From a virus: a DNA stretch of 48,794 nucleotides. The DNA lies in the IMG/VR virus record IMGVR_UViG_3300042691_035711, positions 1-48,794 of that record; one strand, given 5' to 3'. The notes below the pieces were generated by a model, which saw only the letters and a program-made list of their open reading frames with translations, was not told where the DNA came from and did not search any database. This document shows, in pieces, positions 11,995-13,006 of this stretch (position 1 is the first letter of the stretch; every line of letters begins with the position of its first letter). The position numbers and the translations under genes were made by a program.

Positions 11995-12243
11995 TCACCC
12001 TCTCTATTAATATATTATTGACAAATCTCATTTATTTTATATCAATAGAAAGCCTTAATTCTATTGGTCTGAAAGCCTAAGTTCGTCTAAAGTTTGTCTA
12101 AACTTTAACTAAAGTTCGTCTAAATTTATTCCTTTATTTATTCCCTTATTTATCCCTTATTATTCCCTAATTTATCAAAAATTAGGTCGTTGAGACTGTA
12201 AGACTCATGAGGGTTTTATCCCTAATTTTCTCCTAATTTACTC
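11995..12243. other. convergent intergenic region with short repeats
   Basis: The late (rightward) and early (leftward) blocks meet here. The stretch holds three GTT(C/T)GTCTAAA repeats near 12081-12126, a 7-bp inverted repeat AAAGTTT-GTCT-AAACTTT, and strings of TTATTCCCTTA-like and CTCCTAATTT-like units. A TTGACA at 12018-12023 has no good -10 partner. It probably serves as a bidirectional transcription end zone. Confidence 0.6.
12166..12186. terminator. possible bidirectional terminator hairpin
   Basis: CCTAATTT at 12166-12173 and AAATTAGG at 12179-12186 form an 8-bp stem with a 5-nt loop between converging gene blocks. There is no strong U-tract after the stem on either strand, and the stem is AT-rich, so termination efficiency is uncertain. 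Confidence 0.4.
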
Positions 12244-12417
12244 CTAATTTTTCTTAATCACCCAGCCATCCCTAGCCATTAAATTATAAAACGAATCAAG
12301 AGTTAATTCATCTTTAGCTCCATTCTCTTTAATGACGCTTACCGTTGCCGTGTGGTAAAACACTTTAAAAATTTTACCGTCTTTGCTGATGTAGATTTCA
12401 GTTTCGCCTTTTTTCAT
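12244..12417 (-). CDS. small conserved-looking protein, 57 residues
   Basis: The ATG at 12415-12417 is preceded by an AGAGGTGGAA Shine-Dalgarno sequence, one of the better ones in this genome. The product runs KKGETEIYISKDGKIFKVFY, then SVIKENGAKDEL, and ends DGWVIKKN. It looks like a small beta-rich protein of about four strands and a helix. It is the last gene of the leftward block. Family and function are unknown. Confidence 0.7.
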   Translation of the reverse strand: MKKGETEIYISKDGKIFKVFYHTATVSVIKENGAKDELTLDSFYNLMARDGWVIKKN

Positions 12418-12534: not shown

Positions 12535-12608
12535 TGGAGCGGAATCGCAGAATCGAACTGCGCTCTTCTGGTTGGAAGCAAGACATAATACCAATATACT
12601 AATCCTGC
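12535..12608 (-). tRNA. tRNA-Gly (anticodon UCC)
   Basis: The 74-nt minus-strand sequence begins GCAGGATTAGTATATTGGT and ends ATTCCGCTCCA with an encoded CCA. The T-arm (CGCAG TTCGATT CTGCG) is perfect and the anticodon loop is CTTCCAA. The acceptor stem has one A-C mismatch at pair 3-70 and one G-U pair; the anticodon stem has one U-C mismatch. UCC reads GGA/GGG. The layout matches bacterial tRNA-Gly(UCC), though the mismatches suggest some drift. Confidence 0.82.
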
Positions 12609-12615
12609 AAAAAAA

Positions 12616-12800
12616 GTCAAAGGCTGGGATTTGCACCCAGCACGGGCTAAAAGAAGTTGCCCAGTAAGCGATACCATCTACCGCCAAGACGCTCGGAAAC
12701 CTTCTCTAATTCCTTTGGATACTCACTGCCCGAGAAATTCTCAGACATTTTCTCCTAAAAAGCCGTATAATTACCGCGTCTGCTATTTCGCCACTTTGAC
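12616..12800 (-). tRNA. tRNA-Leu-like gene interrupted in the anticodon loop
   Basis: The ends GTCAAAG and CTTTGAC pair over 7 of 7 positions. After the 5' end come UG and a class II D-arm (GCG AAATAGCAGA CGC) as in tRNA-Leu. Before the 3' end come a long variable arm (GGGC...GCCC), GUG and a T-arm (CTGGG TGCAAAT CCCAG, then one extra C). GGTAA and TTACT can form the anticodon stem. Between them lie 103 nt instead of 7, with no normal anticodon. The D-loop lacks GG and the T-loop has TGC for TTC. It may be a decayed gene or one carrying an unusual insertion. Confidence 0.5.
12647..12748 (-). CDS. 33-residue ORF inside the interrupted tRNA-like gene
   Basis: The frame starts ATG three nt after AGGAG, ends TAG in the variable arm, and encodes MSENFSGSEYPKELEK, then VSERLGGRWYRLLGNFF. 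The codons look like normal protein composition. An in-frame TAG lies just upstream of the Shine-Dalgarno. It fills nearly all of the insertion in the tRNA-Leu-like gene. Whether it is translated is unknown; short frames also arise by chance. Confidence 0.35.
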   Translation of the reverse strand: MSENFSGSEYPKELEKVSERLGGRWYRLLGNFF

Positions 12801-12823
12801 ACAATATAAACGATTTGCCTTTT

Positions 12824-12915
12824 TTGCAGAAAGGCTAAACTGGTCTAACTGTGCCTTAAAGCGGAACTTTCTTAGACATTCCCCGCTGCGGCTAATTTCC
12901 CGCCGTATAGCAAGC
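12824..12915 (-). ncRNA. degenerate cloverleaf-like or other structured RNA
   Basis: This GC-richer stretch holds three consecutive stems: GCGG/CCGC at 12888-12903 (4 bp, 8-nt loop, D-arm-like), GGAA/TTCC within GCGG...CCGC at 12861-12886, and AAGGC/GCCTT at 12831-12857. Outer TTGC and GCAA ends can pair. Read on the minus strand the order resembles a tRNA, but the third loop is 17 nt and no anticodon is convincing. It could be a decayed tRNA or a distinct RNA. Confidence 0.3.
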
Positions 12916-12978
12916 CTAGCAATCATTGTTAAGAGGATTTACTAGAGTCACTTGCAAGAGCGACTTGCCAATACTCAC

Positions 12979-13006
12979 TTTATAGAAGTTAGATTTTATA
13001 TTGCAA
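12979..13006 (-). promoter_or_regulatory. predicted leftward promoter for the tRNA cluster
   Basis: On the minus strand TTGCAA (13001-13006) is followed after 16 nt by TATAAA (12979-12984). The same TTGCAA-N16-TATA pattern occurs at 18586-18613 and 21988-22015. It lies just after the nuclease gene's stop and would drive the tRNA genes and the 57-residue gene. Confidence 0.5.

Follow-up and report, generated by a model that had tools for sequence, protein, structure and literature searches.

The element considered here lies in a viral stretch of DNA of 48,794 nucleotides (nt), positions 1 to 48,794 of IMG/VR virus record IMGVR_UViG_3300042691_035711 and hereafter the window, at 12616-12800 on the minus strand. 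It resembles a transfer RNA (tRNA) gene for leucine that has no anticodon arm, and its order is GTCAAAG-TG-GCG-AAATAGCAGA-CGC ... TGGGC-AACTTCTTTTA-GCCCG-T-GCTGGG-TGCAAAT-CCCAGC-CTTTGAC. An initial annotation had described a tRNA-Leu-like gene split in its anticodon loop, and the two tRNA-Leu-like halves, the perfect 7-base-pair (bp) acceptor, the D-arm, the T-arm and the absence of an anticodon loop were all confirmed at this position. The acceptor, D-arm and T-arm stand in the register of a tRNA, except that the T-stem (GCTGGG/CCCAGC) has 6 bp instead of 5, all six of which form, and the predicted fold includes both acceptor and T-stem (z -2.0). The halves of a weak stem are separated by 103 nt, and no 7-nt anticodon loop is present, as had been noted; the variable arm named in the same description is better regarded, together with the anticodon region, as a replaced core. 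Within that core a helix, TGGGC/GCCCG, ends 1 nt 5' of the T-stem.

Within the AT-rich window, a perfect T-arm with a matching acceptor 7-mer (G-U allowed) occurs at 6 places, compared to 2.8 in shuffles, and pairing alone is thus insufficient proof for the element. On comparative sequence grounds, what marks the element as real is the exact register of its 18-nt leucine D-arm, together with a large family whose acceptors covary. ARAGORN made zero calls on it in default or intron mode and, with the threshold lowered to 50%, called nothing but a tRNA-Asp(ATC), which is implausible. Rfam 15, including its tRNA, transfer-messenger RNA (tmRNA) and group I intron models, gave no match to the element at gathering threshold or at E<=10, and no match on any family element scanned. 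The initial annotation had named the lack of a tRNA covariance-model score, and of paired ends in relatives, as signs against a tRNA-like gene; the first was indeed observed with Rfam, and implies that the element is not a tRNA rather than nothing at all, and the second proved to be the opposite of what was found, since the ends do pair in relatives.

Relatives were sought with three patterns. A scan of IMG/VR with the exact D-arm TGGCGNAATAGYAGACGC, neutral on acceptor and T-arm, matched 74 contigs, among which were a few ordinary tRNA-Leu genes and many stretches with the anatomy of the window element, namely a 7-nt acceptor and its complement at the two ends and, between them, the D-arm, a long middle devoid of an anticodon arm, and a T-arm. 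A pattern that required a TGC T-loop and allowed a gap of 58-88 nt matched at least 120 contigs; the first 80 loci listed yielded 57 unique elements, nearly all pairing at 6-7 of 7 acceptor positions and 55 of them 107-137 nt long. A third pattern, with a 120-150-nt gap as in the window, matched 11 contigs. Counted as unique elements shorter than 300 nt, with tRNAs excluded, the family comprises at least 123 elements, in at least 82 unrelated core groups and with at least 65 different acceptors. The window element shares its defining features, a 7-nt acceptor pairing in fixed register around a leucine D-arm and a TGC/TTC T-arm. Taken together, these stretches very probably represent a widespread and apparently undescribed family of phage RNAs, in which a tRNA-like shell encloses a variable core. 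The 58-88-nt gap pattern was found in none of 399 bacterial genomes in each of two phyla, a weak negative given that the pattern was exact, and on this basis a bacterial chromosomal origin was rejected.

Pairing was evaluated on every stretch with the D-arm and T-loop in fixed register, unselected for acceptor pairing. The acceptor paired at 7/7 positions in 41 of 52 distinct ends and at 6 or more in 46 of 52, compared to 7/7 in 2.8% of shuffled partners. Pairs 2-6 were each seen as G-C, C-G, A-T and T-A, and pair 1 as G-C, T-A or A-T, with pair 7 always G-C. The sixth, outermost T-stem pair was kept in 51/52, so that the acceptor/T stack measures 13 bp in the family and 12 bp in ordinary tRNAs, and the T-loop reads UGCAAAU in 67/82 core families. 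Within the core, a helix of at least 6 bp ending exactly 2 nt before the T-stem (a norm from which the window helix departs by one) was present in 55% compared to 17% in shuffles, and the core hairpin of a Lactobacillus subfamily carries two compensated pairs. These data show that the shell is under selection as a folded RNA. By contrast, no excess of stems starting next to the D-arm was detected across the 82 core families, which argues that there is no anticodon stem, and hence no anticodon arm to be restored.

The cores behave differently from the shell, as seen in two core-swap examples among related prophages. Over a 681-nt stretch L141 and L173 share 86.6% identity, which stops exactly at the final D-arm base (element nt 26); it returns at nt 79, just 5' of the T-stem, and the intervening cores are unrelated and of unequal length. 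The same pattern is seen in L139 and L217, which are 100% identical to nt 26. Conversely, nearly one and the same core occurs in two shells, with acceptor GTGCTTG (L139, L204, L222, L233, L272) and with acceptor TGAGATG (L252). The swaps and the core shared across acceptors indicate that shell and core act as modules. As judged from aligned sequences, cores are thus shown to be exchanged between phages exactly at the borders of the shell, and one core to fit shells with different acceptors. The coordinates of the window element and its surroundings are collected in Table 1.

Table 1. Parts of the tRNA-Leu-like element and adjoining features, in window coordinates.
Feature	Position	Strand	Basis or remark
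Whole tRNA-Leu-like RNA gene, 185 nt	12616..12800	minus	Own sequence and family
Acceptor stem, 5' strand GTCAAAG	12794..12800	minus	7/7 pairs with 12616-12622; family covariation
Leucine-type D-arm TGGCGAAATAGCAGACGC	12776..12793	minus	18-nt motif that found the family; D-loop as in ordinary tRNA-Leu genes
Variable core, 134 nt, in place of anticodon and variable arms	12642..12775	minus	Unlike other cores; core exchange in relatives
Core helix TGGGC-AACTTCTTTTA-GCCCG beside T-arm	12643..12663	minus	Family core-helix position; also in predicted fold
T-arm, 6-bp stem, loop TGCAAAT	12623..12641	minus	Loop in 67/82 and 6-bp stem in 67/82 core families
Acceptor stem, 3' strand CTTTGAC	12616..12622	minus	Next base T; CCA not encoded
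33-codon open reading frame MSENFSGSEYPKELEKVSERLGGRWYRLLGNFF within core	12647..12748	minus	Member-specific; coding status uncertain
AGGAG upstream of the 33-codon frame	12752..12756	minus	Read in sequence
Ordinary tRNA-Gly(TCC), 7 nt downstream of the element	12535..12608	minus	Presumably same precursor

These observations allow a model to be proposed, in which the element is probably a phage non-coding RNA whose tRNA-Leu shell surrounds a core that replaces the anticodon and variable arms, the whole being matured like a tRNA and the core being active. The shell consists of the acceptor, the D-arm, the T-arm and the 13-bp acceptor/T stack. Ribonuclease P (RNase P) may cut the precursor, which in the window is probably common with the adjacent tRNA-Gly, at the 5' end of the acceptor, and the 3' end may be trimmed as in a tRNA; maturation of this tRNA-like kind is quite likely. 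The product would be a nuclease-resistant RNA, kept out of translation by the 13-bp stack and the absent anticodon. The core would then be the working part of the RNA, possibly binding a host or defence factor or serving as a decoy for it, in a conflict with the host or with rival phages. Rapid replacement of the core within a conserved shell fits a conflict of this kind, be it with rival phages or with the defences of the host, although a role in conflict or host takeover is proposed only tentatively, with counter-defence as the leading guess. The shell probably serves as a stable vehicle for RNA tools that change quickly and are directed against the host. The broader notion of a natural "tRNA scaffold" in phages of many hosts, a non-decoding tRNA-Leu shell in which effector RNAs (perhaps sometimes mini-messages) are presented and swapped between viruses as cassettes, is evenly balanced between acceptance and doubt. 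To this extent the suggestion of a tRNA mimic in the initial annotation pointed in the right direction, toward a tRNA-Leu shell devoid of an anticodon arm.

Several observations weigh against this model. The folding energy of the window core is unremarkable (z -0.56), the window element is the lone member of its own core family, and the same locus in the nearest relatives of the window phage holds a tRNA-Trp (L002) or no tRNA (L003). The discriminator base is A in 59%, T in 20% and C in 17%, and no more than 4/82 encode a CCA, which makes tRNA-like 3' maturation uncertain and leucine charging doubtful; charging was set aside as a function because the discriminator is A in only 59%. Nor do cores appear to be antisense to their own phage contig, as the longest complement averaged 9.17 compared to 9.25 in shuffles (82 contigs, mostly partial), and a guide directed against the phage's own genes was rejected for want of excess complementarity.

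Among the alternatives, it is conceivable, though unlikely, that the element acts as a decoy, drawing off host nucleases or toxins directed at class II tRNAs, with the shell as the bait and a core for which it suffices not to decode. There is precedent, as Septu and retron-Eco7 cleave tRNA-Tyr in the variable loop, where a phage tRNA may serve as decoy or supplement (PMC13096335), and phage tRNAs are known to weaken defences that cut tRNAs, Septu among them (PMC13096335). Leucine tRNAs are likewise of class II, and the shell offers no anticodon to cut. However, bait for a variable-arm nuclease needs a conserved variable-arm region, and it is precisely this region that changes; the acceptor sequences also differ between lineages. 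Bait alone therefore leaves the variation of the core unexplained.

A tRNA-mimic mini-messenger RNA, in which AGGAG and ATG would direct synthesis of a 33-residue peptide from a message shielded by tRNA-like ends, is distinctly improbable. The AGGAG, the ATG and the 33-codon open reading frame (ORF) reported initially are present in the window core; a 33-codon open frame arises in 10% of shuffles of this core, and one with a Shine-Dalgarno (SD) motif of 5 nt or more in only 0.3%, and by codon score the ORF is among the top 3% relative to shuffled open frames and the top 7% relative to non-coding frames. A further member, L265, has a 44-codon ORF that fills its entire core. However, ORFs of at least 15 codons occur in 14 of the 82 core families compared to 10.2 +/- 2.8 expected (P 0.11), and an ORF was rejected as a family trait for lack of enrichment. 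In addition, among 26 genes tested in the window phage an SD motif of 5 nt precedes 1 and one of 4 nt precedes 3, the upstream regions being mostly A/T-rich, which suggests that the host of this phage may not rely on such motifs and makes the AGGAG weak evidence. Neither the 33-codon nor the 44-codon peptide has a homologue in phage records, and the stop codon of the former falls at the T-proximal core helix. An ORF-bearing insertion thus describes the window member and not the family, and the ORF, specific to this member, is itself weakly supported.

It is very unlikely that the element is an intron-interrupted tRNA-Leu gene, with a new small intron, an archaeal-type bulge-helix-bulge or a group I remnant to be spliced out. 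Introns are known from leucine tRNA genes, and a weak GGTAA/TTACT pairing could give the window element an anticodon stem. However, the family has no stem beside the D-arm, its cores are non-homologous and shrink to ~30 nt in phage Sha1, and neither the ARAGORN intron mode at default threshold nor the Rfam intron models responded. The absence of excess stems after the D-arm in the 82 core families, and the wholesale swapping of cores, likewise contradict the initial view of an anticodon loop split by an insertion.

A decayed tRNA-Leu gene or a chance fold is scarcely credible here and is refuted for the family: the element does adjoin a tRNA gene where the tRNA content of relatives changes, has no tRNA software score and has end pairing that by itself is near chance level, but compensatory acceptor changes in exact register run through the family, the same architecture recurs in unrelated phages, and the covariation excludes the decay first considered. 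The altered D-loop and T-loop had also been read as loss of tRNA shape. However, 7 of 8 ordinary tRNA-Leu genes from the same D-arm searches have this short D-loop together with a TGC T-loop and keep their anticodon arms intact, and the eighth has a longer D-loop and TTC. The change thus looks like normal paired variation, as it is also found in the tRNA-Trp(CCA) of L002 (L002:4085-4158), which occupies the window-element locus in a close relative of the window phage and has a T-loop reading TGCGAAT and no GG in its D-loop.

Several known systems share parts of this architecture. The family resembles bacterial class II tRNA-Leu in its D-arm, acceptor geometry and T-loop/D-loop combination, and differs in having no anticodon arm, a 6-bp T-stem and a variable discriminator, and in being missed by ARAGORN and the Rfam tRNA model. 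Like tmRNA (RF00023), it has tRNA-like ends around a non-tRNA middle with a possible ORF; unlike tmRNA, the window element keeps a full leucine D-arm and has C3-G70 instead of G3-U70, and identity with tmRNA was rejected because it gave no model score and lacks G3-U70. RNAC and RNAD of phage T4 (species 1 and 2), whose function is unknown (PMC9697503), are likewise stable phage RNAs beside phage tRNAs, and RNAC has a T-arm near its 3' end. However, RNAC has no leucine D-arm and ~5/7 acceptor pairs, with neither core nor shell in common. The c4 antisense RNA of phages P1 and P7 (RF01695) has a regulatory role and is likewise encoded by a phage, and it is the RNase P of the host that processes it (PMC4919922, ref. 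206). Such processing is what is proposed by analogy for the family; c4, however, is antisense to a phage transcript, whereas the family has no such match above chance, and the shell is not shared. A tRNA-shaped part also serves as a processing or stability handle in the laboratory tRNA scaffold and in the tRNA-like microRNA carriers of gammaherpesviruses. The former is man-made and the latter carry their payload outside the tRNA-like part, and neither is related to the family by descent.

No published description of the family was found in the open-access literature, although it may have been described elsewhere; T4 RNAC and RNAD and the c4 antisense RNA come nearest among known RNAs. What would be new is a class of RNA with a tRNA shell and an exchangeable core, as the looser class of stable tRNA-like phage RNAs already had T4 RNAC. 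Decades of annotation by tRNA finders have missed the family, which is too tRNA-like for noise and too little of a tRNA to call. It is abundant, the swapping of its cores suggests a function in an arms race, and it may bear on the long-standing question of the purpose of stable RNAs other than tRNAs, T4 RNAC and RNAD among them.

The family is also unannotated in isolated Lactobacillus phages, where it is directly testable. In 31 phage records, nearly all of them L. plantarum phages, the GTGCTTG shell is present in whole or in part, with no annotated feature beneath the matches; in LP65 an annotated ORF overlaps. The carriers span unrelated groups (LP65 of the Herelleviridae, Tybeckvirinae, phiJL-1 of Coetzeevirus, Sha1) and include a Hujiaoplasma phage. 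The Sha1 element measures 83 nt and its core is essentially one hairpin, and Lactobacillus phage P1 (L136:1474-1531) has a minimal form in which a small hairpin replaces D-arm and core between the acceptor and T-arm of the shell. For the Bacchae/Iacchus group, only tRNAs from tRNAscan-SE were reported (PMC6669764). An ordinary tRNA lies within 1 kb of the element in 21/82, and elements are often situated between late transcription regulators upstream and terminase/HNH genes downstream; these neighbours are common and the signal from them is mixed, and a function read from them was rejected.

Other RNA genes lie near some elements. In phage phiJL-1 (L134:817-875) and Hujiaoplasma phage zrk29-2 (L135:818-876), a 59-nt tRNA-like stretch with a 7-bp acceptor, D-arm and T-arm, and no anticodon arm, is followed by a 42-nt hairpin-like stretch (GTTATGCAG...CTGTATAAC), the two standing immediately 5' of the shell/core element, and the differences between the two 59-nt copies preserve the T-stem. 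Directly downstream of the element in LP65 (L137:1720-1802), and in the same place in L133, is a tRNA-like gene annotated as a pseudo "tRNA-OTHER", whose anticodon arm appears to be extended. A tmRNA gene (L193:7314-7626) occurs in a phage contig that also has ~18 tRNAs and a shell/core element, and a DUF3800-VII RNA, another phage RNA of unknown function, lies ~120 nt upstream of an element (L251:126-215). In the window itself, a second structured RNA upstream, at 12818-12992, was rejected, as its fold is no better than that of shuffles. A short contig from a Rickettsiales metagenome-assembled genome contains an 86% match to the terminase of the window phage, which does not settle the host. 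Downstream of the tRNA-Gly, the non-coding interval 12079-12251 contains short direct repeats of AAGTTCGTCTAAAGTT type and TTTATCCCTAATTTT type, which could be binding sites or an origin.
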